The notes under the pieces are model-generated. The model was not told the DNA's origin. It saw nothing but the letters and a program-made list of their open reading frames with translations, and did no database searches. The translations under genes and the position numbers were made by a program. From Allolobophora icterica (taxonomy: Eukaryota > Annelida > Clitellata > Crassiclitellata > Lumbricidae), in NCBI GenBank assembly GCA_963556255.1, contig OY744605.1:86218528-86282527 (forward strand): a stretch of DNA of 64,000 nucleotides, read 5' to 3'. Positions 15,471 to 62,465 of the stretch are shown here, piece after piece. Each line of letters opens with the position of its first letter. Position 1 is the first letter of the stretch.

Positions 15471-15536
15471 TTAGACACCTTTAAATCGGTAACTATTAAT
15501 GGTATAAATACAGAAATTTTCCAGATTACGTTTTCG

Positions 15537-15841
15537 ATTTTGAAAACGCCACAGTACAGGTTTCCCGCGCAGATGGCGGGAAAACGAAAAATCTGATCCG
15601 TATTACAGGGCGATAAACTGCATTATAGTAGTAATAATCCGTTGAATAATCTGTAAAACATAATTCGTAAGCTATGTAGAATTATCCGTAGTATCCGTAG
15701 TATAATTTAATCCGTGCTCTACGCAAAAACCCAATTCGTAGTCGCCTTGATTAAACGCAGCCCACTCGCGGACGCCATCTTGACCCAAAATCGATTTATC
15801 GATTTATCTTCATTCATTAACTTTGCATCAATCATTATATA
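15537..15841 (+). promoter_or_regulatory. 5' untranslated region and probable internal promoter of the I-clade LINE
   Basis: Starts ATTTTGAAAACGCC. An 8-bp inverted repeat, TTTCCCGC..GCGGGAAA (15561-15583), matches the E2F consensus in both arms. Two words matching the YY1 core occur: AGATGGCGG at 15571-15579 and CGCCATCTT at 15773-15781. Human L1 uses a YY1 site near its start; a similar role here is inference. Confidence 0.45.
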
Positions 15842-17920
15842 ATGGGAAAAGGCAAACGAAAAAGACCTTTGGAAATATCTTCAAGTTCTTCGAATGCCGG
15901 TGATATATCGATGAACAAGAGTATCATTGAAAAAAGGAGATCGGACGATCAACACATTTCAGACGTATACAAAAATCCAAAAATCTCATCAGCCTTAGAA
16001 ACTGCTTCACATCAAGCTGGTTCTGATGAAACTTCCAAAGATAGGAAAGAAATTGAAAGTACAGACGAAGACATACATGATACACATGGTAGCTATACAT
16101 CGGAATCTGTAGAAGATATGAGAAATTGCTTGTACAATTCTTCTGACAATATTCAAAATGATAATATCACCCACTTTGAATCTTACTTCGAATCAGCGGC
16201 AAGAAGACGATCTCAATCGTTGGAAAGCCGACAAGATCAGGTAATAAATCAAAAATATACAAAAACATTGATAAAAGGTGACTTTTTGAAGGCGGTCCCT
16301 CAGAAGTTGCCGGATCAGCGGTGTAGGATGGATGGCGGTGATGATAAGCGTTACAGTCATGCACATCCGAAGAAAAGACTTAAGAGAAATATTTGTACAA
16401 GTCCAGTTACAGACAGCGTTAATTCCTCCGCTGTTGTTGAGAAATCTGTGACATGTAATGTTTCTGAGAAATGTCTTGATGACATTTGTGTTGATAATTC
16501 TGTTACAGGTCATGATGATGTAAATTTTCAGAGTTTAAGTCAAATGAAAATGGTTGAAATATCAAATGCAAATCAGGTAAGGCAAGAGAAGGTCATTACC
16601 ATGAATAATTCCATATTGATGCCCAGTGGGATTACAAATGATGCAAACAAGTCAATGACTGACCAAGTTATTGACGGCACAATGAACCACAAACCCCGTC
16701 CTCATTTGACGGAGGAGAAAAAGAGGATCCTAAGAGAGGTTCAGTCACGCACTGTATTTATAGAGGGGAATAAAGATGACCTCCGTAAGTACTTTATACA
16801 CATGCCTCGTCAACTCAACAAGGAAATAGTTCAGAAGACGAGGGGAGAGGTTGACAAAGTTTTTATAACTCAGCAAGGTGTACTTAAAATCATTGCTAAA
16901 GATGAAGCTCAGAAGAATCAACTTCTGAAGATACAATCATTGAATGATAGGCCTGTAAAAACTAGTATTCCTTTTGCGTTGACATCCCAACCTGTGTCTA
17001 ACAACAAACCCCCTCATGTGAAAAGACAGGATAAGGATTACTTTGTTAAAGGGGTAGTTTTTGGTTTATTTGAAAATCAAGAGAATTTAAACGAGATTGC
17101 ATTGGAAAAGGGAGCCCATCATATCCATAGACTGGGTAATTCTGAATTTAGCAAAGCCACTTTGATCGCTTATCCTAAAGGGACTGTTCTGCCAGATTTC
17201 TTGGAAGTGAATGGCAGAAGGTATAGGATTAATCCTTTTGTACCTAGACCATTGAGATGTGATCATTGCCAAATGTTTAGTCACTCTAAATTATTTTGCA
17301 GACGAGAAGTTGTGTGCAGTAGATGCAGTGGTAGTCACTCTTATGTTGACTGCCCAGATAAATCTAATTTAAAATGTGCTAACTGTGGCCAGGGCCACAG
17401 TGCTGCCCATAGAAGCTGTCCAATATATATAAAGATTCAATCTGCTCTTAAAATAAGAGCAGAGCAGAATGTTACTCTTGCTGATGCTGTTGTCAAGGTT
17501 GATGAGGTCCAGCATCGGAGTGTTGATGTCAATGCTCTTAAGACGGACAATTCCACTTATGCCTCAAAAGTAAAAGCTGGAACAGAAAATCAAGCAAGAG
17601 TAATAAATACTTCATTTGATGTACAACCAACAACTGATGTGCAAATCATTTCTACTGTACAAACCTCTTCTGATGATGTAGTCAAAAGGTTTTTGTCATT
17701 CAATGACAAAGATTACAAGGCAATATATCACAGCAAGCCAGCAAATAACACAGTGGAAGATTATGACCCAATTATGAAGATAAAAGTGTCCTTTGTTCTT
17801 GGCGTATTGGCAACTATTGCAAAGGCTGAGTCAAAAAAACAGGCACAGTTTGTAATCTGCCATGCAGCATCTGAAATCCTTTTTGATAATGAGATAGAAT
17901 TTAGCTATAAAGACACGTAA
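15842..17920 (+). CDS. ORF1 (gag-like) nucleic-acid-binding protein of the I-clade LINE
   Basis: A complete 692-residue frame from ATGGGAAAAGGC to TAA. The first 280 residues are hydrophilic, rich in Ser, Asp and Lys, and start with a basic GKGKRKRPLE. From about residue 300 a folded segment (RTVFIEGNKDDLRKYF through TLIAYPKGTVLP) leads to three zinc knuckles at about residues 473-530: CDHCQMFSHSKLFC (C-x2-C-x4-H-x4-C), CSRCSGSHSYVDC and CANCGQGHSAAHRSC. The next segment, PIYIKIQSALKIRAEQNVT, is a conserved continuation in gag proteins of Jockey/I elements. ORF1 proteins coat the element RNA and form the ribonucleoprotein. The 3' end lies 37 bp before the ORF2 ATG, so ORF2 probably depends on reinitiation. 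Confidence 0.9.
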   Translation: MGKGKRKRPLEISSSSSNAGDISMNKSIIEKRRSDDQHISDVYKNPKISSALETASHQAGSDETSKDRKEIESTDEDIHDTHGSYTSESVEDMRNCLYNSSDNIQNDNITHFESYFESAARRRSQSLESRQDQVINQKYTKTLIKGDFLKAVPQKLPDQRCRMDGGDDKRYSHAHPKKRLKRNICTSPVTDSVNSSAVVEKSVTCNVSEKCLDDICVDNSVTGHDDVNFQSLSQMKMVEISNANQVRQEKVITMNNSILMPSGITNDANKSMTDQVIDGTMNHKPRPHLTEEKKRILREVQSRTVFIEGNKDDLRKYFIHMPRQLNKEIVQKTRGEVDKVFITQQGVLKIIAKDEAQKNQLLKIQSLNDRPVKTSIPFALTSQPVSNNKPPHVKRQDKDYFVKGVVFGLFENQENLNEIALEKGAHHIHRLGNSEFSKATLIAYPKGTVLPDFLEVNGRRYRINPFVPRPLRCDHCQMFSHSKLFCRREVVCSRCSGSHSYVDCPDKSNLKCANCGQGHSAAHRSCPIYIKIQSALKIRAEQNVTLADAVVKVDEVQHRSVDVNALKTDNSTYASKVKAGTENQARVINTSFDVQPTTDVQIISTVQTSSDDVVKRFLSFNDKDYKAIYHSKPANNTVEDYDPIMKIKVSFVLGVLATIAKAESKKQAQFVICHAASEILFDNEIEFSYKDT

Positions 17921-17957
17921 ATTAAGAGCAGTAGTTTCATTTTTGTTGTTGTCCACT

Positions 17958-20900
17958 ATGGCGTTGACCATTCTTCAATGGAATGCACGTGGTTTACGTG
18001 GTCATAAGGACCAACTTAGAAATTATATAATGAAGGTGTGTGTTCCACCGGATGTGATGTGTGTGGAAGAGACTTTTGTGAAAGGTGTCACTCAATCACC
18101 AAAATTGGATGGTTACAATATTATACGTAAGGACTGCTTGAATAATGAAAGGGGGGGTTTAGCTATTTACTTAAAAGTGGGCTTAAATTTTAATGTACTA
18201 ACTGTGGAAGACATTCCAAACATTGAAATTCAGGGTATTGAAATTAAAACTTTCAACGGTCATTTAAAAATATTTAATTCTTATATCACACCTTCATATA
18301 CATTTAAAAAAGAAGATATTCAGAATATTTTTCCACATAAAAGATCAATTATTGTTGGCGATTTTAATGCTCATAATAAACTCTGGGGCTGTTCTAAGAC
18401 AAATAACAGAGGGATAATTATAGAAGAAATATTAACAGAAAAGAATTTAGTTGTGCTTAATACAGGTCAAGCTACACGTATCACATCAAACCAATCAAAT
18501 TTGAATTCTGTTATAGATTTGAGCATATGTTCACAAGATGTAGCTCTTAATGCTAGACATAACGTCACCAATAGCAATATGGGCTCTGATCATTATGCTA
18601 CTATAACTACTATTAATGAAGAAATCACAATAGAGTATAATTTAAGTATGCATCTATGGAAATTAAAAAAAGCGGATTGGAAGAATTATGAAGAACTAAG
18701 TAAATTTTCAATAACAACAGATATTTTAGTTGATAAAAATGTTGACGCTAATTTCAATAATTTAGTAGATTGTATTACTTCTATAGCGAATCAATCAATT
18801 CCTAGTAAAAATCTAAAAAATAGAAAGAATAAAAAGAAAAAATTTAGACCTTTACCATATTGGAGTGATAAATGCAATGAAGTCATTTATAAAAGAAATC
18901 AGTATAGGAATAAAATGAATAAAGCAAGGGAGTTAAATGATTATTTGGAATACAAGAAACAAGAGGCTATAGTTAAACAGACACTTAAAACAGAAGCAAA
19001 AACTTGTTGGCAAACATATTGCTCTGAACTTACGGATCAGACAAAATTGGGCTCTGTTTGGACATGGGCAAGAAAAATGAATGGTATTGCAACCTATAGT
19101 TCCATTCCTACTCTGAATCGTAATGAATTAATAGCTGAAACAAACCTTGAAAAAGCAAATCTTTTAGCTAACACTTATGCAAGTACTAGTAGTACCCAAA
19201 ATTATAGTAAAAAATTCTTAAATTATATCAAAGATAATAATTTACAAAATAACCCTAATAGAATTGACAGTAGTCCTGTTCATGAAATGGAAATCTTAAA
19301 TGAGAGGTTTTATCTTAATGAATTGAAACAAGCTATAAGATCAGCAAAAAATAATAAGTCACCGGGTGATGACAAATTACCTTATGAGTTGTTAAAACAT
19401 CTTCATAAAAATGCTCTTAAAACCCTATTAATATTTTATAATGAAATCTGGGAGGAAGGGAAATTGCCAACTGACTGGCATCATGCCATTATTCTACCAT
19501 TATTAAAACCAAATAAAGACGCCTCGGTTCCAGAATCTTATCGACCTATATCATTGACTCCAACGATTTGTAAAGTAATGGAAACAATGGTAACAAAACG
19601 TCTCCAATGGTTTTTGGAAAAAAATAACCTTATTTCAAAAAATCAGTCTGGCTTTCGAAAATATAGAAGTACAAATGATCAAATCCTTAAACTTCAGGAT
19701 AATATCCTTAAAAAAATTAAAAATAAAGAACATGTTTTGGCTATTTTCATTGACTTTGAAAGAGCATATGACATGTTACATGTACCTACCCTTTTAAATA
19801 AAATTCAGAATTTGGGAATAGTGGGTAATACATTTAACTGGATTGAAAACTTTCTTTCAAATAGAACTTTTCAGGTGAAAGTTGGGGCAGAACTTTCTGA
19901 TAAATGTATGCAACAGAATGGTACACCCCAGGGTTCGGTAATATCTCCTATTTTATTCTTGCTAATGATAAATGATATTGCTGCAGGTGTGGATGGTGTA
20001 GAGATGTCACTGTTTGCTGATGATAGTGCTATTTACTTAGGACATAGAAATGTTAAAATATTACAAAATAAAATTCAATTATCGATCAATTTAATACAAA
20101 ATTGGTGTAATAAAAATGGTTTTAAAATATCTATTAATAAAACCACTGGAGTCCTTTTCTCCAAAAGAAATAATTTGTCAAGGATTACTATTAAAATTGA
20201 TAAAGAACAAATTAAAATGGAAAATGAGGTCAAATTCTTGGGAGTAATTTTTGACAGTAAATTGAGTTGGAAACCACATATTGATTATATAATTGAAAAA
20301 TGCAAAAAGAGGTTAAATCTCATAATAGCCATCAGTGGTTATGGTTGGGGAGCTTGTAAGAAAACTCTCCTAACCATATACAGGGCATTAATTAGGTCTA
20401 TTTTGGATTATGGTGACGTTGCTTATTCTTCTGCTTGTAAATCGCACCTAGATAAACTCTTGTATCCAAACTGAGGCACTTAGATTATGTTGTGGAGCCC
20501 CTAAGGGTACTGCAGCTGCAGCACTTCAAAATGAATGTGGAGAGTTGCCTCTTCATTTAAGACGACTCCAAAATTCAATAAAATGTGGGACTAAAATTTT
20601 GGGTAATAAATTTCACATAAATACAGCAACAATGGAGAACCACTGGACAAATGTTTTTAGGACACCTGAGAGTAGGGAGCATTCCATTTATACTCGTACT
20701 TCTGAATTCTTTTCTTCACTTAATACATCTATTATTGGCCCTTCTTTCCCTTCTGAACCTCCTTGGTGTAACAAACAAGTAGAGGTTGACTTAACACTGA
20801 GTAAGTTAATAAATAAGAAAATTGATCATCCAGAATTTTTAAAGCAATCTGCTTTAGAATTAGTTTCTAAGTACGACTCTTATGTACATATCTATACTGA

Positions 20901-21732
20901 TGGGTCAACGGTAGATCATAGTGTTTCTGCTGCCTTTACAGTACCAAGTTTAAATATAGATAAAAAATTTAGATTATGTAATAACTCCAGTATTTATGCA
21001 GCAGAGTTGACTGCAATTATAGAAACTGTAAAATGGATTTTAAACTCCGAATGTTATAAGAATTGTCAATTTGCATTGTTTTCTGATTCATTGAGTGTTC
21101 TTACGTCAATTAAGGAGTCTTATTCTCAGTCTAGACCTAATTTATTGAATGAACTATTGTCTCTGATTAACAGACTAAATTCCAATCAAATAAGATTTAT
21201 TTGGATCCCAAGTCACATTGACCTGACAGGTAATGATCGAGCAGATACTTTGGCTAAAGAAGCCCTGAGTATTGATCATATTAATTCTACTAATTATCTT
21301 GAACTTTCAGAAATTTTTACTTTAATGAAACTGTATATAGTAAATAAATGGCAATTAGAATATACTAACGATAATAGAGGTCATTTTTATAAATCTATTT
21401 GTCCAATTGTAAGTACAGATATTAAATATTTAGAACCCTATAGGCATAAGGAAGTCCAAATTTCTAGATTGCGTCTGGGAGTTGCGAATACTAATCAAAG
21501 GCTGTTTATTATTAAACGACATTCAAATGGTTTATGTGATACCTGTCAGGTCAAGGAGACTATTCACCACCTCCTACTTGAATGTAAAAAAGAAGATATA
21601 TCTAAGTTGTTGCGAGATAAATGTCAGTTGTATAAAAATGAAATTTCTATTTTAAACCTTTTAACAATGAGTGTGTTTCAAGGCGAAGTGTATAGGTTAG
21701 TTAAAATAATTACTAAAGGTCAAATTTTGTAA
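17958..21732 (+). CDS. ORF2 of the I-clade LINE: endonuclease, reverse transcriptase, RNase H; one frameshift
   Basis: The ATG at 17958 gives MALTILQWNARGLRGH, the canonical start of an APE-type endonuclease. An upstream in-frame TTG is unlikely to be used. Endonuclease motifs are VEETFVKG, IIVGDFNAHNKLW and GSDHYAT (about residues 35-220). Reverse-transcriptase motifs are ESYRPISLTPTICKVMET, QSGFRKYRSTNDQ, AIFIDFERAYD (motif A, about 598), NGTPQGSVISPILF (B) and LFADDSAIY (C, about 685). Near 20462-20466 one extra base shifts the frame; IQTEALRLCCGAPKG resumes in the next frame. RNase H follows with all four acidic residues: YTDGST, AAELTAI, FSDSLS and GNDRADTLA. A terminal CDTC..HHLLLEC zinc-finger-like motif closes the protein. 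It nicks DNA, copies the element RNA and degrades the RNA strand. The frameshift makes this copy inactive unless bypassed. Confidence 0.9.
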
Positions 21733-22686
21733 ATAGATATGTTATGTTTGCTACTGTAAACAGTTTGTTTACACTATTTTTTTTTAAATTTGTTTTCTTT
21801 GTGCATTTTATTTTATTGTATTAGGCATTACATTATTATAATACACTTTTTATAATAATACCCTTATGCAACATTCTTTAGTTGTATTTTTTGCATATTG
21901 GTTATTGGAGACCTTGTATGACCATTTTCTTATCAGTTGTTATATTATATTATATATGTAATAAAAATTTGATGTTAGTAAATTACATATATAAAATATT
22001 GATTATTGAGTATTTATGTTACTACCCTCTAACATTTTGTTGTTTAGATATGGTATGATTTGGTTTATGTATTGGAAAATATACTATATTGTATAGTGTT
22101 ACAATATTGTGTTGCAATACAGGAAATATAAGGTAATTGTGAATACAATACACTGAAACACAACTTTAAACAATTGTAATTATATGTTTATATATGCTTT
22201 GTTAATTAAATACATTTATGGTGGAGTGTGTTAAATATCTGAACAGTGTAAAAAAAAGCAACTTGGTATACCATATGTTTCATTTAATGTGTATGCGGTT
22301 TGTGAATTTGTTATTATTTCGTGCATGGTGTAATTGTAGCAGTTGATATTACCATGGAATGTCGTTAAGCTGAAGAATAAGAAATAATTGCTTAGAAATT
22401 TCAAATGTAGAAAAAGAATATAATGTCATAATTATAATTATATGTACTGTGCATTTATATTTGAAATTGTTTAAATATATCTTATGTGTGGTAGTTGTTG
22501 TAAAATACTGTTTAAATTGCATCAAGCATTTTATTAACATGTGTATTATAATCTCAAACAATATTAGATATAATGCTTTAAATGATGTGACATTCTATGA
22601 CATTGTACGGCTCTGGTTGACACTTTTAAATGGTGTCTTTCGGACGCTATAAGTATCTTGTTTTCTGTAAATTGCATTTATGAATT

Positions 22687-22754: not shown

Positions 22755-24425
22755 GGCAGAAAATGCAGAAAGTTCGAGTTAATGACCCCGCAGCCATAAC
22801 AAATATTTAGCAAAGGACAATATTATAACTGGTCGTAATATTATGTGTGTTGTGTCCACTGCCTGCAATGATCTCCTTTTCTTTAGAATCGAGGATGTCT
22901 GCGTCCAGCAACTCATAGAAAGTGTAACGATGAAGCTCCTAAAGGAATTGTGAGAGAATTCGCCAGATGACACCGTTAAACCAATGACCAAAGAAGGCGA
23001 TTATCTGGCAGAGGTACAACCGATGTGGCTGAGTCTAATCAGAAAATTTGTATAGCGCCAACATCGCATTCCACACAAAACCGCATTCTGAAATTAAAAT
23101 TTCCTGTACGAGGGATTTAATTAGTGGAAAAAATATCTAATGCTATTCAATTACTTACAACGCGTTGCAGTTTAGATTTTAATTCGGACAACGGTAGTTT
23201 TTTCCTCCAAGGTTTTGTGTATTGCGAATTATCGTTATTGCGTCTGATTTTACGCCTTTGCTTTAGACACCCTGAAATCAGATATCAAAGAGCAATATAG
23301 TTGTAGTTTTCGTTCAATTGCTAAATGAGTGCATGATTCTATTTCAAAATGAGAGCACTTAGTACAGAAGATAATAACATTATGGAATAAAAGATTATTA
23401 GAAATTGTGGTCAATGGTCATTAACCCATAAAGTGATGTCAAACCTTGGAATTGTTTTGTAGTGTCTGCGTTGGTCGCCCGAGATTCGGGATTGCCGACC
23501 AACGGAAGAAGATGAATTCTCGGATGTTGAAGAGTAGTTTATTCACCAGCACGACCTTCGGCCAGCGACTCCAACAGACTGAGTTGAGTCACCGACTGAG
23601 CGACTTTACAGTCTTAACGTTACTCTTAAATACCCTTCCGGTCGGCGTCGCTTGGTCTACATATGTTGCACATGCATGAATACGAGCACCCTATGTGGCT
23701 TGACCACAGGTGTCATTCCTCTGTCTAGTCTAAACACTAGTACATACCTGCTACGCCTAAGCATAGCACAGCTGTCTGTCTCTGTCATTCCTGTCTGCCT
23801 GTCTGTCTTTCCATCTCTGTGTCTGTCTATCTGTCTGTCTATCTGTCTCTCGGACTGTCAAAAAGGATCCCATTCAACAACATAACTTGTATATACTGAA
23901 CAATGGGCCAGGAACTTTATTAAACACATAGTGGGCCTCAGTCCTATGTATACAAATTTAACCTCTGATAGCTTTGAAGTGCAAGTTATGATTAATATCT
24001 CTCAGTCGATCCGAACAAGAATAATTATGTTTTCGGTATCCATTAAATGTACGAAGTGCAACAGGGGGAAGGGGTATGAAAATATGATTTTTTGCGTACG
24101 TAACATATGGATGGCCCCTATGTCTATTCCTGCCGTGATAAAATTAGCGTTACTTAGACCAGCATCTGCTTTATGGAGCTAAATCTAAGTATTACCAGTT
24201 TTTCTACCTCCCTCCATAGGACGACTTTTTTGCTGAAGGTTGTTTGTCACTCGTACTTGATTCGTAGTTGCCTTATTAGTTCTTGTAAGCCCCCATCTCA
24301 TGATGACTTATTCCAATAGCCACCATCTCGAATTTGTTCTGTGTTGGAGTCCTTATGTTAATAACGTGAAGAAAGCGTTTCCCTCTCCTCGTCAAATCGT
24401 TCAACCAGTTTACCCTTTACCACTT
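22755..24425. other. Non-coding interval with simple repeats and one structured segment
   Basis: No gene is recognisable. 23263-23277 is a degenerate copy of the TTAGACACC motif. Near 23465-23503 GTTGGTCG, an inner CCCGA/TCGGG pair and CGACCAAC form a compound inverted repeat at the head of a relatively CpG-rich 200 bp that could be part of a long terminal repeat. A (TCTG)n-like tract lies at 23770-23855. Confidence 0.5.
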
Positions 24426-25689: not shown

Positions 25690-27359
25690 GGTTAAGACAA
25701 CGTCACAGGGCATGGAAGCCAGAGGATGTCGCTTGACAGTTGATAATGGGTGTAACCTTTTAGACACCTTTAGAACGTGATCAGCCGAAGCTATATATAA
25801 ATAAATTGCGTTTAATCGCTATCTGAAATTTGCTACATATATCACAAGATGAAATTCTCTTCGTAAGTGTCTCACCAACTCTCTTAGGAGTCGCAAATGA
25901 TGATCTGATAGTAAGAAAATAACACGAGTTAAACTAAATGAAGAGACAAACAGTTTTAATCAAAAGAAGTATTATTTCAACCATAGTCTCTATTTAACGA
26001 CGGCTGACAGATAGACGTCGATCAGGATGTCGTCTTTCGTCAACTCCTCTTCTCCATCTTGTGACTGCCACAGCCGTTGACGTCGATGGTTGGTATAGTT
26101 TCCACTTAAGCAAAGCTGTGTCATAACAAAATGACTTCCTTCGCCCTCCTTCCCTATCCAGACTTCGGACTGGCACTACCCGAATAATGCACAGTGGCGG
26201 AAGCGGTTCTTCTGCTGGGACTGACACAACCAGTGTTTCTATAAAACAAGGGTAAGTTAGATCCAGCGTGTAATTGTGGTTCCAAAGGCCGTTTGACGTC
26301 GATCATGCACAGAAGGGATGTCAAAGCTTTTCAATGGTGGCCAGTGGCAAAATTTGTCAGCATCTTATGGCAACAAATTAAGGCCGTTGACGTCAATGAT
26401 TACTTTTCCCAATCGAGTTTTGTCGTGTGGTCGTGCCCGAACTTTGGAAGGAGGCCAATGTCAAATACTTAAATCAAGAATTGTTCTTGTTGAACCAGAT
26501 TATTCGAATAAGATTTCAATTTTTCGATTTCTACGTTTTTTGGCGAGGTATTTTGTCCTATACACAAACGCCAAGAAATCGCACGAAATCTTCCGTCCAA
26601 ACACAGAAGAAATTTAACGCAAATAATAATATTTTTGGCGGAAACTGAAAGAGTGTTGCACGCTCCCTCGGATATCAACAATCAGATTGGAGTCAATAGG
26701 TCAGATTCGATATACACATTCTGGGTTGATTCGATATTGAGATCATAATTCATCCACATCTTACGAAAAAACGAAATTGCAGAATATATAGCTTCAGGTG
26801 AAAACTTTTTAAGGTGTCTTAATAAAATTACGCATTATCCGCTTAGGGCAACAAAATCAGTTGACGTCGACAGAAATTGTTTTAGTATAACCATTGATGG
26901 TTAGTTGCTGTTTAACGACACTCTTCTCTGGACCTGGGACTGGCACTACCACAGGTAGGGTAGTTGCGGAGTTGAAAATTAAGACTTTTCAGATCATAAT
27001 ACGGGACTGCTCAACTGCTTTCTCTTATAAGGTTAAATTTACACTTAAAAGGTCTGTAATTATTTTTGAACTGTTCTCACGTTTCTTATAGCATAATGCA
27101 GCTTCAAAATTGGCATTTTAGCTAAGGAACTTGTTGTTGTTTACTGGAGTTTGGGAAGAACTCGATCTTATAATAGTGCGTGATCATAAGATCTATCTGA
27201 TAGGAGCTTTTGGACGCTTTTTGGTAGAGCATTCCTATCAAAGTTTTCGTCAGTTCCTATTTGTGCTGTTACGTAATAGTGTTTCCTGATTATTGCACTG
27301 ATCACATGATCTGGTTTGGTACAATTGCAATCATATCTATCACCAGACTGATTGAACGA
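25690..27359. repeat. Mosaic of dispersed modules, left part
   Basis: Contains copies of the hairpin module (25705-25745 plus; 26060-26095, 26285-26315 and 26365-26400 minus) and of the TTTAAAGGTGTCTAA signal (25760-25774, 26806-26820). It also holds the GTTTAACGAC...GGCACTACC module (26100-26200, 26910-26960). No coding region is supported. Confidence 0.6.
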
Positions 27360-27790
27360 CATTGACCATTAATATAGCGCTGCAATACTACGACTTAAAG
27401 TTGCAGAAACAGGACTTTTATTAGATAATAAACAAAGCTTCCGTACTCATAGGATCAGATGAAGCGATTGAAATGTGTAACTGACGAATAAAGGTATAAT
27501 TATGTTGTGATTAGAGACCTCTGACGACTTCCATTGATTTCGCCTCTACCTTACTTTACAAATTTTTTATTTGTTCTTCTCGAATGAGAAGATTTATCAT
27601 TACTTTACATTGCTTGTCGACATCTTACGGTGACCTCAACGCCAGTATTATGGTGAACGTCAACTGCCCATAGAACGAAAACGATGACTATATTGCCGTG
27701 TGAGCAGCGATTTAAAGGTGTCTAAGCTAGTGGGTAAAATCAGATGCACATGTTAGGCAAAGAATTAGCACAGCAAATTGCGCCCTCTCT
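27360..27790 (+). repeat. 430-bp direct repeat, partner of 62045-62465
   Basis: Both copies share, in the same order, gaccattaatatagcgctg, tactacgactt/gctacgactt, gattgaaatgtgtaac, tacctta/tatctta plus ctttacaa, acttta-cattg, tcgacatcttacgg, gatttaaaggtgtctaa and aaatcagatgca. The copies are 34.7 kb apart and clearly diverged. Confidence 0.75.
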
Positions 27791-28239
27791 TCATCATCCG
27801 TCAAACTTTTTGTGACTTTTATCAACTCAACTTCTTTATTCCTGATTTGTTCATATCAGCCCCCTTTATTTTGCAGTAGCCACGAGAGGTCGCCAAACTA
27901 TGAATATAAACAGCGAAAGAAAAAGTCTCTTGATCGTCCTTTACAAGGCTCTTTCTTGGCAATTCCTTCCGATACAATTAAACTTGATTATTTTTCAAAA
28001 ATTAATTAATTCGATGTCATTTTCCCAGCAACCAATATATTTTGGTTAATTCTATATACTAATAAAAACATGCTGTTCTGTTTTATTTCGTTCAACACCT
28101 TTACATGACTCTCTCTAGAGGCCATGAATTTGAAAATTTCGTTTAATCGGTGCTTAATATTCAGGTGCTCCCTCTAGAATTAGGCATCGATGTCAACGGC
28201 CAAAGCAGCCACAGGCTATCATATCGGCGTATCTTATCA
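27791..28239. repeat. Duplicated segment with GGTTAATT-type module
   Basis: The series atgaatataaacagcga, ccttccgatacaatt, gatgtcatt, ttttggttaatt and acctttacatgac recurs, diverged, at 43100-43250 and 52285-52500. The section 28075-28240 matches 39700-39850. No gene is seen. Confidence 0.6.
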
Positions 28240-28454: not shown

Positions 28455-28845
28455 ACGTCCCGATGAGCGATCGTCCCTATGAGCGATCGTCCATTTGAGC
28501 GATCGTCCCTATGAGCGATCGTCCATTTGAGCGATCGTCCCTATGAGCGATCGTCCATTTGAGCGATCGTCCCTATGAGCGATCGTCCATTTGAGCGATC
28601 GTCCCTATGAGCGATCGTCCATTTGAGCGATCGTCCCTATGAGCGATCGTCCATTTGAGCGATCGTCCCTATGAGCGATCGTCCATTTGAGCGATCGTCC
28701 CTATGAGCGATCGTCCATTTGAGCGATCGTCCCTATGAGCGATCGTCCATTTGAGCGATCGTCCCTATGAGCGATCGTCCATTTGAGCGATCGTCCCTAT
28801 GAGCGATTGTCCTATGAGCGATCTTCATATGAGCGATAGTCCGAA
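28455..28845. repeat. Tandem array, 32-bp unit of two 16-bp half-units
   Basis: About ten copies of a 32-bp unit. Each half is gagcgatcgtcc followed by ctat or attt in strict alternation; the last three half-units are diverged. Each half contains the palindrome CGATCG. The array interrupts sequence that is continuous at 43510-43560 (gctattctaagttacgtccc). Confidence 0.9.
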
Positions 28846-29851
28846 TACCGTAACGAGAGTCAATAGCGCTATCAATTTATTAGTTTCCATAATTAACCAA
28901 AATACAATGGTTACTAAGTAGAATGACATTGAATTTCTTACTTCATTTACTACAAAAGTTGCTGATTCTAAGTTTATCGGTATGAATTGTTTTGAAAGAA
29001 CCTTGAGAGGACGATTACTCGATCCACGTGTTAATTCTTAGCTTTGCGACACTTTGACGTCGATACTTAATTCTTGCTGGAAATGTTGTTTAAGCTACCG
29101 TTTACCCACAATTTTCGTATTCATGTCCTTTAGAGAAAGTGATATTAAGGTGTGTAACGACAGCAATAGCGCAATAAATTTTAAAGTATCCAGAATTAAC
29201 CAAAATTACAATGGTTACTATTTCCAATTTTATCAAATTTATTCATTTAGATCATGCAACTGATTTTTAATAATTAATTTAACTGCATCGGAAGGAATTT
29301 CCTAGAAAGAGCGTTGTATAGGACAATAATTTACTCGACCCATGTGATAATTCGTTTCCTGTTTATATTAATAGTTTGGCGACATCTTGTGGTTGCAACA
29401 GATCAAAGGCGGCTCATATGGACAAAGCAGAAATAAAGGAGTTGATGCGACTACCATACACATTTTGTATAACTTTCTCTTTAAAATTTAAATTTTACGC
29501 TGCTATAATTATAGTAACACATTGAGCCCTTAACATCGTAAAAGCGGGCGCAGAGTGCATAAGATTGGTTTGCTGCGTCAAATCTTTGTCTAACATGCGT
29601 ATCTGATTTTGCGCCATGGCTTTAGACACCTTTAAATCGGTGTTCAAACGGCAATGTAGTTCTCGCTTTCGTTTAAACGCTACTCACAACGTTCATCGGA
29701 GTATCGTTACAATAATTATGGTAACGTTAAGGTCAAAGGCAGTCGTCGGAGGTCTTTAAGCAATGGAACCTGCTTGCGTTTATGCTAGGAAACTCCTTTA
29801 TTGGCTGTTTTGTAAAGTCTAGCATGGCATTGGAATCTTGAGTATTCGATG
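28846..29851. repeat. Mosaic of dispersed modules
   Basis: Two inverted copies of the AATTAACCAAAATACAATGG module (28880-28920, 29170-29225) follow degenerate hairpin modules. The TTTAGACACCTTTAAA signal is at 29621-29635 within an inverted copy of the 27700-27770 segment. No coding region is seen. Confidence 0.55.
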
Positions 29852-30290: not shown

Positions 30291-30682
30291 CTTTCTATCA
30301 TTTTACACCCATCTCGTCATGTGTGGTGCATAAGGTCTAGGCCTATTTAACGAAGTCGTCATCTCGAAGATGATTGACGTCATTTACAAGAACAATGTGC
30401 ACAGACCACTGCCTGCTTAGCGTCAAACGCCCTCTCGATGTCATCGGGGAGACGGATTATCTGGTCCTGACAACATCTCATTCTTCTGAAGCCTCATTGG
30501 TATCGATTGAAGAACCCGTTTGTGTCCATGTGGAAACACACGTTAATGTTTCTATCGTTTTATATACTATGCTCGTCAATGGATTTGTTTGGCTTAGTTT
30601 CAGTGTTACATGTGACTACTCAATTAACGCAAAAGCTTAATATATTGCGCCCTGAAAACGCGTTTTAAAGGTGTCTAAGTAT

Positions 30683-37291: not shown

Positions 37292-37559
37292 TAGATTTAA
37301 ATGTTTTGAGAAGTCTACAGTATGCAATCCATAGTTAATATGGAAATAATGAAACCATTTGTTGTATTATTAAAATTAACAATAAAATAGTTCGTAAGAC
37401 AAATGCATGGACATTTGTCTCACTAGACACCGTTAATACGCATTCAAAAGAACTATATAATCGTAAACCAGAGAACATTATTCCTTCATAAACCAAATTC
37501 CAATAAACAACAACGGCAATTAGCTGACACGAAATGATCAAAGCAATAATAAATTTCAC

Positions 37560-48411: not shown

Positions 48412-48868
48412 CATTAAGTAGCAACTAGTAGTAGTAGTTTCAGTTTAACGACACTGTGATGACATTAAGGAGTCAAATGCCGTTGACGTCTATAGGAAAG
48501 AATTTTTCAGACTTCTCGCTGCTGAGATAACTGAATCTATGAAAACTGATGATTACATTATTTTAGCGTAAGAAAAGCAGGTTTAAACTGTGCGTCAGAT
48601 CAAAGGCAGATAGATAATGTTCATAAAGACAGTGAGAAGATATATAGATTAATTAATAGTGAGTTGTTTAATGAAAGGTTAATTAATATAAAGTGAGGTA
48701 ATGTGAGGGTGGTCATCAAAGGCCCTGTCAGCCATGAGATGACGGTACAAGTGACGCTATAATTAGACACCTTTTAATTTGAGCTATACGACTCTACGTA
48801 TAAGGGATTTTCCATGCACATCCATTCAGTAAACACGCCGTTGACGTCGATGCCTAATTTTGTCGGCT
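48412..48868. repeat. Mosaic of dispersed modules
   Basis: A GTTTAACGACACTG module at 48438-48465 and a plus-oriented hairpin module at 48712-48750, followed by TTAGACACCTTTTA at 48763-48777. No coding region is seen. Confidence 0.55.
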
Positions 48869-49668: not shown

Positions 49669-51879
49669 ATGGTACCTATAAACGAAACGTCCTTATTCAT
49701 GACCTTTACAGAGTGGGATATAAAGGTGTGTAGCAAGAGCATAATAGTTAACACATTTATTAGTATCAATAATTACCCGAAACACAATGGCTTCTAAGGA
49801 CAATGACGTCGAATTTATCTTTCAAAAACTTGTTGAGGAATCTAAGTTTTATTTTCTCGGTTGGTATTGTGCAGAAATATCCTTGTATATTCGATCCATG
49901 GCCAATTCGTTCTCTGTTTGTATTCATAGTCGATTAAGCAAAGTAACAAATGCCATTATAATGGAAGCATATCACTCTACATACAGTTCAATTTCATACA
50001 AACGCTCCGTTGTAACCATCGACTATAATTTGGTTAAGCGTAGAATAAGCAAATTTAATAATTAATTAATGCAGCATAAGATTAGCGCAAGAAGAGGATT
50101 AGAGTAGCATGTGATTATCATGGGAAATTATTAACATAGCACAGACTTATCTAATGAAGACGATGAATATAGCATAAGAATAGACGCTGACCGCATATGG
50201 GTTAATTAGGTAGGGAGCTCGTGTAATTGGTCCCTATTTTCGGGGCGCTATATATTTGCAATTACCATAACCATTACCACAGCAGCTGGCTTTAAACTGC
50301 ACAGCTAGTAGGAAAGTAATCTAAATCGTAAAAATTCCAACAAAGAACCTACAACAGCTTTAGAAAGTGTAATACATTTGCAACTATATTAATAACAAGT
50401 ATTGGGATTTTATCAACGCAGTCGTTAACTATCGGCTGCAATGCGGCCTGGATTTGGGGCGGGGACCAGCGCCAAGCCAGAGTTTTTACGAAGCGGGCCA
50501 GACCAAGTGATGCTCTGGTCGACGGTGTTCGAACCAGGCCGTAATTTTCCGGCTCGTGTTGGTCTTATTCGAGATGCAACTTTTAAAACAGTTCTATATC
50601 TTTTGACTGATGTCATTGCACGGCACTCTTTTCTCCACTTAATCGAACTGTAGTCGACACTATTAATCGTTAACCAAAACGACGAAACATGAAAATATAA
50701 GAAACATAGGTCAGGGTTGATGCCAACGGTCCTTACACTCCACCATTGCCTTATACTCATGTGGAGCCAGTCCAAAGCCTGAATAATACGAGGGCGGCTT
50801 AGTACACTTTTTGGCTGTATTTTTTTAGATGTTTGTACGATTATCAGTTGCTTAATAAAGAAAATACTTATTTACTAACTTATTTAATGTATATCTGAGC
50901 GTGCGTCTCTCTGTGTGATTGTGTATGTGCGTGTGTGTGTGCTTGCGTGAGTTTTTGATGTCGTTGTGGTTGTCGTCGTTGTTCTTCTTATTATTGTTCT
51001 TGTTGTCGTCGTTGTCGATGTTCTGTTTTGTCGATGTTGTTGTTATTAATTTTCTTTTTGTAGTTGTTGTTTTCGCTGATGTTGTTGCTGTTGTACAAGC
51101 TAAAAGACGAGTGCGTGATCTTACGTAATAATTTCACTTTTTAATTTTCTTTTTTTCGCACTTTCCAAACGGAAGTTGTCTTTAACTTCCGTCGGAAGAC
51201 GTTGCAATGCAATCGTCACTTCCGCTGGATATGACGTCACTCCGTTTCGAAAGACATCTGCGTCAAGGCAAACTGCATCATGACAGCAATCTAATCGTCT
51301 CACGACAGAATTATGAAGAATTTTAGCTACTAAACTTTATTACTAAACTTCAACATTTATACAATAGGAATAAAACTAAAAAAAGGTGTTCAAAAACAGC
51401 CTTACAAATCGCAACATATTACTAACCTTTTTAAGCCACCAGTTGATCGACAGAAAGATCGCTATTTCCGTGCAATAGATATAAACGTGTGTCGATGTGT
51501 AATTGCAATTTGTAATTGTTAACGATCATTTATATAGCGCCATTCAAATCAGCGGCGATCTCGACCCGCATCATTCCCAGAACTGGCAAAAAGAAAGGTT
51601 TCAAGCGTCTATGGAACTGAAGAGGAGAGAGGACAAGAAGCTCATGGCGGAGGGAATGAGGGAAGACTGTTCTATGCTGAAGGACGCATTGATGATGATG
51701 ATATTCGTTTATTATTTTCAAAGTAAACACAAGCTGACAAACCGCAGCATGGAACAAAGTTAGACAGAGCTTTGAGAAGTAGATAATGTAGTGTATAGTG
51801 TTCGGGAAATAAAGTCCCTGTTGTCTTTAACTAGAAGACAGAACCGGTGATTCTGGGGACGCAACGAATATACAGTTTA
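49669..51879. repeat. Mosaic of dispersed modules, no genes supported
   Basis: gatataaaggtgtgtag (49718-49734) and aattacccgaaacacaatgg match modules at 28880 and 29143. A GGTTAAGCG module lies near 50030. A TTTATACAATA box precedes aaaaaaaggtgttcaaa at 51376-51392. Near 51525-51575 is a CR1 tail (atttatatagcgccatt). GTT-rich sequence occupies 50945-51100. Overlapping open frames at 50425-50775 show no family resemblance. Confidence 0.5.
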
Positions 51880-54694: not shown

Positions 54695-54899
54695 GCCTAC
54701 TAATAATCCATCTGGGCTATTAGTGTTAACTGTAATCCGTACACACCTTTAAATCACTTTCTCTAAAGCCTATGCATCTTACGATTCGCAACCCGGTAAC
54801 AATATTTTGAATTCTGCGTGGATGAAGGATGACGGTGACGCTAATCATTTTTGTTATGACACAGTGTAGATAAAGAGCAACTAAACACATGCTTAATAT

Positions 54900-56060
54900 T
54901 TGATTATAAAATATTATATTGAACGGTGAGAACTGTTTGAAATAATTTATGTCGAAATCAACGGCTTTTGTTGCCATAAGATGTCGTTAAACACTGGTCA
55001 CTTTAATCTTTGCAACGTCACGTTTCGCATTCAAATTAAGCTACTCACGGAACAGCTATACAGAACTTCTAAAGCAATCTCAGTTCTCGGCCGTACATTC
55101 AGATCCATCTCTTGCTGAATACCTGCATCCTTTCCGATCTCTTCTAAAATGGCCTTTGTTTGCTTAGGGTCAACTTTTATCATTCGGCTACAGGGAACCT
55201 TGACTGGAGAATTGACCACAAGACAAACTTTCTAGGGTTTGTTTGAGGAAGTGTAGATGAATCACATCATCTGAGTCATCTGTTCCTTGATCTCCAGACT
55301 CATCTGCAGTCATAGACGAGATGTTTAGCCTGATCATCACAGTACTAGCCGCTGATTTTCATTGTTACTTGTACAGTGAAATAGTTTCAAAGGTGTCTAA
55401 TGGGGTTTTGAATTTGGTTTACTTGTCCCAACGTGTCAGACGACATCTTAAGGGTCACCCGCGTAAATATTTCCTTACCAGTTGTTGTGAATAAATGCAA
55501 GCAAAGAGTGATCGGTTTGATACAAGCAGATTGATTTCAGTTACGAGGGTTTTGAAGTGCGTAAAAGGAACATCGTTCTGAGAATTTCTTACATTTCATG
55601 TAGCCAATGGTCTGTCGTTGACGGCCTTTGATGTTATAAGATGTCATTAAAATATTGGATAGCCTAATTATCATCGTTATCGTTATTTACAGTTTGGAAC
55701 CTCTGGGTAGTGATGGACTATAGATACAAAATACCTTAATGAAATCGACTGAAACTATATTATAAGAAAGATATGGTAAGGTCGAGTTCAACTGCTCTTA
55801 AAACCCTCCTCTGCCTCATATTTGGGTGGTGCCAGTCAGAAGCCTGATAGTTATGCTTGTAAGAACACGGAATGTCTTTTTAAAAATATTAAAACCCCGT
55901 AGCCTTTGAAATAAATGACATGAAACAACGTGGCGCCACAAGGACTGGTGTCGCTAGATCGTGACTAATGCGAAACCGTATTTAGACACCTTAAAAATGT
56001 TTACACCTATAAATATATAAATCAATCATTTTTATAAGAATTTAGTTTTTTCAGCTTGAG
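54900..56060. repeat. Segmental duplicate, copy 3
   Basis: Same succession as copies 1 and 2, including ttgttgccataagatgtcg (54970), ctgaatacctgcatcctttc (55110), gtaaatatttccttacca (55460), ataagatgtcattaaa (55635) and tttagacacctta (55981). It has no large insertion. Confidence 0.75.
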
Positions 56061-57600: not shown

Positions 57601-58244
57601 CAGCCTAATGGTTGCAAAAGGAGATAAAAAAAAACGCTTGTCAATGTTGACCTATTCCTGTAGCCTACCATCGCGGAACAACGGCCCAATCACCTGACGT
57701 GGTCAATTATGGCATTATATATGATCTGTTTTAAATGTTTTAAAGGTGTCTAAAATGGTTCTGAATTAGCCACAGTCTAGCGACATCTTGTGGCGTCATG
57801 GCATATGACATCAACCGTTTCACAGACTACGTGGTATTATTGATTTCTTGAAAGAGATTCTGTGTTCTTACAAATCCCATTATCCAGGTTTCTGGCTGGC
57901 ACCACCCAGATTCCGAGGAGCAAATAATGATAGGATCCAAGAGTTTCACGACATCTTATGACAAACTATCTATATACAAATGTAACATGTTCTCACAGCT
58001 GAGTCCTTTTTTTGCATATCTTTTGTAAATGTTCACTTTTAACTTGAGTTTTGTTCTAGGAACGCTAAGGAAATGTTAACGCGAGTGACCCACGACATGA
58101 CGGCTGACACTTTGAGATAACTAACCAAATTCAAAACTCCAATTAGACACCTTTAAAACCCTTTCTCTGCAACAATAACAATGGAAATCGACGTTTAGTA
58201 CTCTGGTGACATTGAGTCTCTGTTTGTATTGTATTGTATTGTTT
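57601..58244. repeat. Dispersed modules in both orientations
   Basis: An ATTATATATG box, ttttaaaggtgtctaaa (57738-57754) and then the minus-oriented hairpin module (57778-57825). A further hairpin piece lies at 57947-57970 and ttagacacctttaaaa at 58144-58159. Confidence 0.6.
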
Positions 58245-58575: not shown

Positions 58576-58599
58576 TAAGAGGTAAAGACGGAGAAGGAC

Positions 58600-60580: not shown

Positions 60581-60879
60581 ATATTTGCTTGTCGTAACAC
60601 ACAGCTCTGAGAACTGACTGAAGTGCGAGGATGGGCCCCTCGTGCGTAGGTCGGAACGAAGTTCTGTGTGTAGATAGCGAAGGTTAGACAGAGGACCTTC
60701 ACTATCAGAGTGCCATACCCTATCGTTATCTTTCGAAGCAGAATTTATCACTGTTGTGGTCGATAATTGCCAACACAGAAGCCGGTAAGGAAACTTACTC
60801 CGGAGATGTGGTGCATGATAATATATGTGTGAGGCCGGTATGCCACGCACGGAAATGGATCGAGAGACACGTGACGGTG

Positions 60880-61505
60880 GGAAGACGAGTTATCCAATGG
60901 ACAGGTGTCTAGACGACATGACGTAGAGAGTTACCATTGACAGTTGCCCAATAGACCGGTGTCTAGGACGATGTGATACAGAGACTTGTCGCATGTATTC
61001 CTTGTTTCCGATACGTAGAAAACGTTTGGTGTCCCTTATAAATGGCGATAGTACAAGAGTCACGAGATGTAGAATGGTACGTCAAAGTTCAGATCGGATG
61101 GAGAGTTGGAGGAAGCCGTAGCTAAGAAGCACACAAAGAGGGAAGACTGCTGCTGATTAAGAGATCGAACCCTGTTCTGAAGGACGGCCATCCTGCAGGA
61201 CGTTGCCCATCCGGCGACCGCGGAAGAGGCAGAGTCAGACCCCGAGATAGAACGATATAGTGTTGCCTTTCTTAAGCGGCCAATCCTGAATCTCCTCTGA
61301 TAGGAACGTTCACTATGGGAAGAGATAGAGAACAGCCATTTTACGGTTAAAGTACACAAGGCAGTGACTCGGGTGGCTCCAGACGGGCAGTGGGCTGGAG
61401 TCACCACCACCACCACAGGAAACTCGCCCGGCGCAACGAGAGTGCAGGCGTCCGGGCGGACGCAGAACGCCACAAAATCATACATAAACATATTCAACTG
61501 TGGTA
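60880..61505 (-). other. Possible terminal repeat or promoter of an unknown element
   Basis: On the minus strand this starts TGTGGCGTTATACTACCACA, with inverted ends TGTGG/CCACA, and a TATA box (CATTTATAAGGGAC) lies 470 bp further on, near 61031-61044. Two imperfect copies of a ggtgtctag-ACGA-tg unit follow (60900-60985). These are LTR-like traits, but no partner repeat is visible. Confidence 0.3.
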
Positions 61506-62044
61506 GTATAACGCCACAATAATTTCTTCTGAAGTCAACGGCCTTTGTTGTCATAAGATATAGTTCAACTGTTTGTGAAAACCACCCGCAGTTTTAAACT
61601 CACCCAAAGACATTTTGGGTGGTGTCACTCCAAAGTCTGGAAAAGAGGATGGCGACGATAATCATGTTTGTTATGAGAAAGCATCGTTAAACAAAAGCAT
61701 TCTCACCTCAGACCCAATAAAGCGACGGGCGTCAATATGTCGCTTGACCGTGTGTGTTATGTGTGACCCTCGTAGACACCTTTATAAAGCTTAATACCGA
61801 AGTTATATAAAATTATTTTGCATATGCGATTTCAATTCTACTTTGTTTCTGTTCACTTTCATGAATAAAAATCTCTTGTCATAATAAAACATATTGAATT
61901 AAAGCAGCTCTTGGATCCTTGATGCAGCGTAGTCTCCGTAAAGAGAAATATAATTGTTTTAATAAACAATAATACAGCCTTCAACGGAAAACCACTGGAG
62001 TCCATTTTTGACATTTTTCGGTTAACGGCCTCTCTATCACTACA
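61506..62044. repeat. Dispersed modules
   Basis: Hairpin module gaagtcaacggcctttg, tgtcataagatat at 61527-61562. A GGTGTCACTCC...GTTAAAC module lies at 61618-61692 and gtagacacctttataaag at 61782-61799. Confidence 0.55.
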
Positions 62045-62465
62045 CTGACCATTAATATAGCGCTGGTATAGGTCTGCTACGACTTAAAGTTGTCTAAATA
62101 GATCTTTTATTAGACATTGACAAAGTTTAGGTACTCGTAGTGTCGGATGAAGTGATTGAAATGTGTAACAGTGAAAAATAGTACATCATACGACCTCCAC
62201 TGATTTCTTCGTTATCTTACTTTACAAGGATTTTATTTAAATTTATTCTTCTCAATTCATAGGTTCTAATATTACTTTACATTGTTTATCGACATCTTAC
62301 GGCTGCCGCTCACCTCAACGTTATCATACGAATACGAAAAATTTGGAATGAACAGACTGACTATGGACCGAAAGAGAGAGCTATATAGCCGTTTTAGCAC
62401 CGATTTAAAGGTGTCTAAAGCTAGCAGGTAAAATCAGATGCAAACGTTAGGCAAAGAATTAACGT
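62045..62465 (+). repeat. Direct repeat, partner of 27360-27790
   Basis: See the partner for shared words. This copy has the clearest signal: gagctatatagc at 62380-62391, then atttaaaggtgtctaaag at 62403-62420. Confidence 0.75.

Follow-up and report, generated by a model that had tools for sequence, protein, structure and literature searches.

Thousands of copies of an snRNA-type promoter in the earthworm Allolobophora icterica are candidate point-source small-RNA genes

In Allolobophora icterica, whose COX1 is that of a clitellate annelid, a stretch of 64,000 nucleotides on contig OY744605.1 (positions 86,218,528 to 86,282,527; here called the window) is interspersed with 32 copies of a short element in mixed orientation (Table 1). 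These were located with a profile trained without the copies of the window and applied at a cutoff of at least 12 bits. Four first-order Markov shuffles yielded a mean of 0.0 elements, and the same profile found none at 14 loci around U6 and U6-like matches. Recurrence was also evident from the motif itself: TTTAAAGGTGTCTAA matched the window 39 times with up to three mismatches, against 3.9 expected and a shuffle maximum of 9. Exact motif copies in the whole genome numbered 6,238 (3,065 + 3,173), compared with 23 (11 + 12) for the reversed-pattern control; a very strict genome-wide pattern gave a single match and so carried no information. A sequence-only reading of the window had reported at least 20 such sites, which is confirmed: the profile recovered 28 of its 29 sites (21 strong and 8 weak), shifted by 0 to 10 nt, and added four that were missing from its list (14661, 22616, 23263, and 43710). 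The listed site 35007 and a motif copy with one mismatch at 55386 were absent from the 32 elements. By eye, several element subfamilies were visible in the window, one of them with a tRNA-like stretch immediately upstream of the motif.

Table 1. Promoter-like elements in the window. Coordinates run from the PSE to the predicted start; scores are profile scores in bits.
Element	Strand	PSE	Score	Remarks
14614-14675	-	14661-14675	30.0	degenerate TATA; new to list
15471-15532	+	15471-15485	35.8	exact PSE; TATA at 15503; predicted start 15532
22616-22677	+	22616-22630	20.1	new to list
23263-23323	+	23263-23277	33.8	new to list
25760-25821	+	25760-25774	48.9	TATATA at 25792
26761-26821	-	26807-26821	31.5	
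27665-27725	-	27711-27725	49.4	exact PSE
28091-28152	+	28091-28105	21.0	
29096-29157	-	29143-29157	15.2	
29622-29682	+	29622-29636	39.5	exact PSE
30617-30678	-	30664-30678	36.5	exact PSE
33088-33149	-	33135-33149	34.8	
33460-33521	+	33460-33474	25.1	
34739-34799	-	34785-34799	28.4	
35862-35923	+	35862-35876	23.1	exact PSE
36482-36543	-	36529-36543	36.9	
37423-37483	+	37423-37437	13.4	
39331-39392	+	39331-39345	34.4	
39706-39767	+	39706-39720	28.7	
43446-43507	+	43446-43460	12.5	
43664-43724	-	43710-43724	12.3	new to list
45316-45377	+	45316-45330	25.5	
45758-45819	-	45805-45819	16.4	
48763-48824	+	48763-48777	28.8	
49672-49733	-	49719-49733	14.5	
51332-51393	-	51379-51393	16.0	
54739-54800	+	54739-54753	12.7	
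55982-56043	+	55982-55996	23.3	
57692-57753	-	57739-57753	25.0	exact PSE
58143-58203	+	58143-58157	17.1	exact PSE
61772-61833	+	61772-61786	31.5	
62358-62418	-	62404-62418	37.6	exact PSE

On the functional strand, an element consists of TTAGACACCTTTAAA, 17 nt, TATATA, and the predicted start, which lies about 29 nt on, counted from the initial T of the box. Among 172 copies picked on the motif alone, 122 contained CTATATA with at most one mismatch in a 24-nt zone, compared with 10 to 17 in four control zones. The gap between PSE and TATA box was 15 to 17 nt in 116 of these 122 copies and exactly 17 nt in 84. Genome-wide, TTAGACACCTTTAAA-N17-TATATAAA occurred 246 times and the reversed control 0 times; with any gap from 5 to 35 nt, 443 sites were found (control, 0), and among the first 100 of these listed, 92 had gaps of 16 to 19 nt and none had the gap of 22 nt typical of U6. 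Conservation was confined to about -48 to +55. Read from the sequence, the order of PSE and TATA box is that of an snRNA promoter.

This layout supports the sequence-only reading in part. Its TATA-like box is real, but the spacing falls just below the 18 to 22 nt that it gave, and the box exceeds the intervening spacer by far in conservation in motif-chosen copies, in keeping with its remark that the spacer is far less conserved. A core promoter preserved in otherwise diverged copies, plausibly those of a small transcribed family, likewise agrees with the data, since PSE and TATA box differ least between paralogues. The strand, however, is opposite to the one assumed: the conserved 15-mer lies upstream of the TATA box, like the PSE of snRNA genes, and the proposed start-site motif downstream of TATA was dropped because the U2 and U6 promoters of this genome run in the reverse order. 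An array of T-box half-sites (AGGTGT) independent of TATA was also rejected for want of support; conservation runs from about -19 to +54, past that unit, with TATA at a fixed spacing, and constraint extends over the complete PSE-TATA arrangement, similar to that of U2 and U6 genes.

The snRNA promoters of the genome itself, those of U2 and U6, resemble the elements in having a PSE with an ACC(T/C) core, a TATA-like box, and a start in register. By eye, CACC was present in the PSE of eight of nine U6 genes (L013 has TACC) and six of nine U2 genes (exceptions L047, GACC; L048, TACC; L051, AACC). In six of the nine U2 genes, the PSE region contained CACCTTTTT or CACCTGTTT, and CATTTTC lay between TATA and start in six of nine; elements such as L001, L003, and L006 read GACACCTTTAAA, a TATA-like box, and GACATTTTCG, and the block GACATTTTC is common to U2 and some elements. 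When the 18 snRNA genes were scanned with a profile trained on elements only, with the motif-to-TATA offset left free (26 to 39), the start was placed within 3 nt of the real one in 15, albeit with weak scores: 1 to 3 nt away in seven of nine U2 genes and within 1 nt in eight of nine U6 genes. The offset was 29 to 33 in the seven in-register U2 genes, 37 in all eight in-register U6 genes, and 30 to 32 in the elements, the PSE-TATA spacer of U6 being 5 nt longer. Since the best profile score exceeded all 40 shuffles in only three of nine U2 genes (one out of register) and one of nine U6 genes, it is chiefly register and spacing, and less the score, that tie the elements to snRNA genes. With these weak scores, the PSE of the elements appears related to the genome's own snRNA PSE, and in the sequence its spacing fits U2 (polymerase II [Pol II]) and not U6 (Pol III). 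TTAGACACCTTTAAA is nevertheless a distinct PSE version, the promoters of U2 and U6 match the element profile poorly, and unlike those genes the elements have no snRNA downstream.

At the predicted start, YRNT was found at TATA +28 in 52 of 181 independent copies, compared with a mean of 14.7 and a maximum of 22 over 84 offsets (+36 to +119); the other 129 lacked it. These instances comprised 13 kinds of tetranucleotide, the commonest accounting for a quarter. Moreover, T occurred at +31 in 63 of the 112 copies whose +29 base is a purine versus 22 of the 69 others. YRNT also peaked elsewhere inside the conserved post-TATA block (54 of 181 at +17, 43 at +11, and 33 at both +24 and +25), with CGTT making up over half of the instances at +17, so part of the excess at +28 may reflect shared ancestry. 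The sequences appear to carry the YRNT initiator of nematode 21U genes at the expected position, though with comparable peaks at +11 and +17. Downstream of the predicted start, TTTT showed no clear rise (20 starts in the +30 bin, otherwise 11 to 18 per bin from +20).

No conserved sequence was found after the predicted start. Instead, a segment of about 15 to 25 nt recurred in other copies much more rarely than did the duplicated DNA flanking it on either side: 19 to 23% of the 20-mers starting at TATA +18 to +30, which represent the predicted RNAs, had a relative at some other place in the DNA fetched, against 45 to 58% of those starting at +50 to +160 and 47 to 49% at two upstream offsets (171 elements; McNemar P values from 1.6e-7 to 8e-12; 24-mers were also compared). 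The unique segment begins roughly at the predicted 5' U and fades within about 20 to 30 nt. In 21 matched paralogue pairs, divergence was 0.054 in the PSE, 0.087 in the TATA box, 0.145 in the flanks, 0.205 in the PSE-TATA spacer, and 0.234 in the predicted RNA. The low PSE and TATA values are partly built in, because the profile picked both members of each pair. The spacer likewise diverged more than the flanks, and predicted RNA and spacer did not differ significantly (0.028; CI, -0.034 to 0.087). The seven pairs of very high identity (88 to 98.9%) were too few to reveal an excess in the RNA segment. As judged from these comparisons, the elements share with nematode 21U genes a locus-specific sequence after the start and no conserved transcript. 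A spliced-leader or other conserved RNA gene was rejected since nothing downstream is conserved, and none of seven Rfam matches in the window reached the gathering score. Diverged U2 matches were also rejected as the transcript: the five examined, L052 to L056, proved to be repeats derived from U2, preceded by A-rich sequence and showing no promoter of this kind by eye.

Among the first 100 listed of the 246 strict sites, 95 lay no more than 11 Mb from a contig end (hand count). Some copies were only 60 to 79 bp apart, so that a long transcript would hardly fit between them. Duplicated DNA abounded in the clusters, and the copies are therefore not all independent.

Promoter copies that mostly precede a unique segment of about 20 letters suggest a large set of small guide RNAs with one gene per RNA. 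The layout, the resemblance to U2 and U6, the U2-like spacing, the YRNT excess, the lack of a conserved transcript, the segment particular to each locus, and the crowding of the listed strict copies are all read from the DNA; we infer binding by SNAPc, transcription, the length of the RNA, and loading onto Piwi. Each site would be a minimal snRNA-type Pol II promoter, in which a TATA box follows the core TTAGACACCTTTAAA of an extended PSE at a distance of 17 nt and an initiator, frequently YRNT, lies 28 nt past the first T of TATA. With SNAPc on the PSE and TBP on the TATA box, transcription by Pol II would begin at the R of YRNT and yield a short RNA particular to each locus. From it would come a small guide RNA, most probably a piRNA, that begins with the U two nucleotides beyond the start. 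We consider it probable that thousands of such point-source genes, one promoter to one RNA and largely clustered towards the ends of the chromosomes in this clitellate annelid, work like nematode 21U/piRNA genes.

A mobile, SINE- or MITE-like repeat some 100 bp long, with an snRNA-type promoter by chance and with copies that are mostly neutral relics, is the less likely alternative that fares best. Thousands of copies, the subfamilies seen by eye (including the one with the tRNA-like stretch just 5' of the motif), duplicated surroundings, and conservation restricted to about -48 to +55 are all consistent with it, and the YRNT peaks within the conserved block could be inherited sequence. Target-site duplications, in contrast, were not found: shared flank 5- to 9-mers stayed within 1.3 standard deviations of shuffled pairings in all 10 comparisons. 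A simple insertion should also lose matches at both element ends, whereas sharing dipped on the downstream side only. The contig-end clustering of the listed strict copies and the lower divergence of PSE and TATA than of flanks (in part a product of copy choice) argue against it as well.

Slightly less probable still are snRNA-type Pol II promoters that serve another RNA class (longer noncoding RNAs or Argonaute-free capped short RNAs) or act as promoters only, the unique segment arising by mutation at paused polymerase and not by selection. The matched-pair excess of the predicted RNA over the flanks is modest, and the similar value of the spacer fits raised mutation at bound promoters. Yet the unique segment starts near the predicted 5' U and is short, and T two nucleotides after a purine start, associated here with the purine, is the nematode piRNA signature given in PMC6436959.

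In vertebrates, the combination of a PSE and a strong TATA box marks Pol III genes. Flies have the same arrangement (PMC4227766), but type 3, U6-like Pol III small-RNA genes are very improbable here given the U6 offset of 37, the absence of the 22-nt gap among the 100 sites listed, and the lack of a clear T-run terminator.

Point-source Pol II genes of the kind favored here have their closest parallel in the type I (21U) piRNA genes of nematodes, which bear the Ruby motif and are described in PMC6436959 and PMC7917550 as single-RNA loci numbering thousands; these form megabase clusters in C. elegans and are dispersed in nematodes such as Pristionchus. Shared features are an upstream motif related to the snRNA PSE, a YRNT initiator, and a U two nucleotides past the start. 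The candidate genes differ in their annelid host, unrelated motif sequence, and several contig-end clusters; nematode 21U loci moreover lack the TATA box seen here in 122 of 172 copies (at most one mismatch). As here, Pol II and Pol III snRNA promoters of Drosophila (PSEA/PSEB and PSEA/TATA) differ by a few base pairs in the spacing from PSE to second box (8 versus 12 bp), but fly Pol II genes have PSEB instead of TATA and the PSEA sequence sets the polymerase; the available text of PMC4227766 describes no set of thousands. Conventional annelid piRNA loci (Capitella, PMC8915122; earthworms, PMC6085071) are reported there as TE derived or longer, unlike the elements, which might feed the same Piwi pathway. 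Since TE-derived piRNAs with a 29- to 30-nt 5'-U peak were reported for mixed earthworms (Amynthas and Lumbricus) in PMC6085071, a point-source class would be additional. The accessible portions of neither annelid paper describe a per-RNA promoter motif, and in the literature searched, single-RNA piRNA genes under snRNA-type promoters turned up for nematodes only.

More tentatively, and with somewhat less than even confidence, annelids may have arrived independently of nematodes at a genome-wide system of point-source, 5'-U piRNA-like guides, with thousands of snRNA-type Pol II promoters clustered at chromosome ends and a guide diversifying faster than the surrounding duplicated DNA. Gene birth by duplication together with fast guide change would then give an open-ended RNA repertoire, and a guide segment outpacing its surroundings would naturally document the steps by which small-RNA repertoires arise. 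The reading predicts the exact 5' ends of thousands of RNAs, directly checkable in earthworm small-RNA libraries. If the nematode design does operate in an annelid, then either SNAPc was taken into service for making small RNAs on two or more occasions, or the design is old and other lineages have lost it.

The sequence-only reading had put a TATA-like box first and a conserved motif downstream of it. This order did not hold: on the opposite strand the motif reads TTAGACACCTTTAAA and precedes the TATA box. We examined 172 copies picked solely on the motif (≤2 mismatches; the window and the fetched loci L001-L008 and L023-L042; 176 minus 4 exact duplicates), in which conservation spanned roughly positions -48 to +55 relative to the start of the motif, with none beyond. 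CTATATA at ≤1 mismatch was present in 122 copies, versus 10-17 in each of four control zones, and its first T lay at +32 in 84 of those 122. Genome-wide, TTAGACACCTTTAAA-N17-TATATAAA occurred 246 times (control, 0), and TTAGACACCTTTAAA followed by TATATAAA at any gap from 5 to 35 occurred 443 times (control, 0). Among 100 places listed, the gap was 17 in 56, 19 in 18, 16 in 13, 18 in 5, another size in 8, and 22 in none; in most of the 18 gap-19 places, TATATATAAA holds the TATA at 17.

This promoter layout resembles that of the genome's own U6 and U2 snRNA genes, where the motif corresponds to the proximal sequence element (PSE). A search for U6 gave 14 matches, and all nine high-scoring genes inspected by eye had a CACC-core PSE (TACC at locus L013) with a TATA box ∼33 nt further on. 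For U2 (46 matches), upstream DNA was taken for nine high-scoring genes and five diverged matches. The PSE region of the nine genes contained CACCTTTTT or CACCTGTTT in six and GACC, TACC, or AACC in the rest, with a TATA-like box 27-30 nt on in most (TTAAAAG at L045; degenerate in appearance at L048). CATTTTC stands ahead of the start in 6/9 U2 genes, and one element subfamily (L001, L003, and L006) has a GACATTTTCG block after the TATA box in common with U2. When the snRNA genes were scanned with the element profile, leaving the motif-to-TATA offset free from 26 to 39 and taking the best place, the prediction fell within 1-3 nt of the start in all U2 genes but L046 and L048 (7/9), and within 1 nt of it in all U6 genes but L013 (8/9). 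The offset was 29-33 in the seven in-register U2 genes and 37 in all eight in-register U6 genes, compared with 30-32 in the elements. Scores were weak, the best exceeding all 40 shuffles in three of nine U2 genes (one of them out of register) and one of nine U6 genes. Register and offsets match U2 and scores are weak; on sequence grounds, therefore, the elements are a separate variant of the snRNA promoter whose spacing is Pol II-like. Similarly, the polymerase classes of Drosophila snRNA promoters are reported to differ by a few base pairs of spacing (8 versus 12 bp); in contrast, polymerase choice in flies is described as set by the PSEA sequence (PMC4227766).

For the predicted start, the 172 copies were reduced to 154 by removing 18 without a TATA box and to 121 by removing 33 near-duplicates; 60 of 62 genome-wide copies from the strict listed sites were kept as independent and added, giving 181. 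YRNT was in excess 28 nt past the first T of the TATA box (52/181; across the 84 offsets between +36 and +119, the mean was 14.7 and the highest count 22) and comprised thirteen tetranucleotide kinds, the commonest making up a quarter. T at +31 was linked to a purine at +29 (63 of 112 copies with a purine versus 22 of 69 without). At nematode piRNA loci, YRNT initiators are reported, with transcription starting two nucleotides upstream of the mature U (PMC6436959). The +28 peak fits an initiator without proving one, because YRNT is also frequent elsewhere in the conserved block after the TATA box (43 copies at +11, 54 at +17, over half of these CGTT, and 33 each at +24 and +25).

The segment after the predicted start is specific to each locus. 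No sequence was conserved past the start when motif-selected and genome-wide copies were aligned, and no pair among the predicted 21-mers of the 181 elements had more than 14 of the 21 positions identical in ungapped comparison. In 171 elements (window and L023-L042), we scored a 20-mer as having a relative if it shared ≥15 identities with a 20-mer elsewhere in the window or L009-L042. For start positions TATA+18 to +30, 19-23% of 20-mers had a relative. The share was 45-58% for positions TATA+50 to +160 and 47-49% for two upstream positions, and +30 differed from each of seven flank positions in paired tests (p = 1.6e-7 to 8e-12). A like dip was seen with 24-mers (0.19 at +20 and +30 versus 0.43-0.61 at -160 to -50 and +50 to +220). 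It sets in at about the predicted 5' U and fades across 20-30 nt.

Since a fixed junction at this place would produce part of such a dip, paralogue pairs homologous on both sides were also compared. From 184 elements, 44 candidate and 23 matched pairs were obtained; dropping two whose divergence fell outside 0.02-0.40 left 21. The poor conservation noted earlier between box and motif was borne out, spacer divergence being 0.205 versus 0.054 for the PSE and 0.087 for the TATA box, although the latter two values are partly built in because the profile picked both pair members. Divergence was 0.234 in the predicted RNA and 0.145 in the flanks; both the predicted RNA (difference CI, 0.043-0.136) and the spacer (0.006-0.117) exceeded the flanks, and predicted RNA and spacer did not differ significantly in these 21 pairs. 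In a looser, redundant set of 182 alignments with only one member picked by the profile, divergence was 0.055 (PSE), 0.105 (TATA), 0.294 (spacer), 0.378 (+58 to +65), 0.336 (+66 to +99), and 0.215-0.268 further out. Best-hit pairs of 75-88% identity (n = 42) reached 0.27-0.28 at +56 to +79 versus ∼0.15 around it, and those of 60-75% identity (n = 55) reached 0.29-0.38 there with many gaps (spacer, 0.29-0.32); pairs of >88% identity (n = 7) had no clear excess in this interval.

Genome counts were made on the 1.118-Gb assembly (328 contigs). Its mitochondrial COX1, translated with NCBI table 5, shares 95-96% identity with that of Eisenia, Amynthas, Polypheretima, and Pontoscolex, which places the animal among the clitellate annelids as an earthworm or near relative. 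The exact 15-mer motif occurs 6,238 times, versus 23 for the reversed pattern, and at ≤3 mismatches the window has 39 matches versus 3.9 expected. A two-part profile trained solely on copies outside the window identified 32 elements within it (18 on the plus and 14 on the minus strand, in promoter orientation), among them 28 of the 29 sites first noticed, and none in four shuffles or in the DNA of 14 loci fetched at U6 and U6-like matches. The window (G000:C4:86218528-86282527) belongs to an 87.1-Mb contig, ∼0.85 Mb short of its end. The listed copies cluster likewise: 95 of the first 100 listed TTAGACACCTTTAAA-N17-TATATAAA sites, counted by hand, are ≤11 Mb from a contig end, the exceptions being one at 79.5 Mb of contig C2 and four at 46-50 Mb of C6. 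None of these 100 is on C3; the listed sites span C1 to 4.9 Mb of C7, i.e., part of the genome. A simple transposon was rejected on this concentration and also because 5- to 9-mers shared between flanks were no commoner than in shuffled pairings. In fetched cluster DNA, with a few overlapping loci counted twice, neighboring elements had a median distance of 700 bp and were co-oriented in 104 cases and oppositely oriented in 54, and ten intervals measured 66-79 bp. Tandem promoters merely 60-79 bp apart were observed at L071, L078, and 10-kb loci of C1, which brings the start of one promoter close to the PSE of the one that follows.

A second conserved box, GCCACAAGATGTCG, within a wider AACGGCCnTGGCAGCCACAAGATGTCGTTAAACACTGGAT, often lies ∼40-60 nt upstream of the PSE. 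At ≤3 mismatches it occurs 32 times in the window (reversed control, 1), and 47 of 186 elements carry it at -80 to -40 from the PSE. It resembles a CTCF core and may serve as a boundary or a distal element. By eye, one genome-wide subfamily has a tRNA-like stretch, GGCCGATTGGTTAGAGCGCTCGCC, ahead of the motif and often ACGGTGTCAACC after it, with GACACC and GGTGTC as the two arms of an inverted repeat around TTTAAAAC. The five diverged U2 matches inspected (L052-L056) are repeats in which U2 sequence, from about GTATCTGTTCTTATCAGC on, is preceded by an A-rich stretch; they appear to form a family of interspersed repeats derived from U2.

Features in and around the window and at fetched loci
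Feature	Location	Strand	Details
GCCACAAGATGTCG box, examples	window 25718-25731, 39289-39302, 45271-45284, 57781-57794		
Subfamily with tRNA-like stretch	L069-L071, L074, L090, L095, L097, L098, L105 and others		
Diverged U2 matches	G000:C4:86297624-86297813, 86303206-86303305; also L053-L056		
Twister-P1 ribozyme, sub-threshold matches	window 26142-26205, 3828-3897	-, -	27.7 and 33.2 bits (cut-off 67.2)
Long ORFs	window 15821-21732, 5972-8373	+, -	non-LTR retrotransposon look by eye (endonuclease, reverse transcriptase, RNase H motifs)
32-bp tandem array	window 28464-28842		97% match; unit begins TGAGCGATCGTCC
Two arrays of GGACAATTCG-type units	window 42024-42286, 42687-42828	mutually opposite	

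Judged by title or opening of the abstract, the piRNA, SNAPc, snRNA-promoter, earthworm, annelid, mollusc, and lophotrochozoan literature searched, with few preprints and few subscription papers covered, contained no account of motif-driven, point-source small RNAs from organisms other than nematodes; the sources consulted included PMC8915122 and PMC11114477. In dust mites such motifs were reportedly sought and none was shared (PMC5805368). We propose that SNAPc and Pol II would act at the elements, that a short capped RNA would be transcribed at each, and that trimming by two nucleotides would yield a 5'-U guide, with Piwi as its probable partner. In mixed Amynthas and Lumbricus samples, piRNAs are reported to show a 5'-U peak at 29-30 nt (PMC6085071), which means that animals of this kind have a Piwi pathway available.
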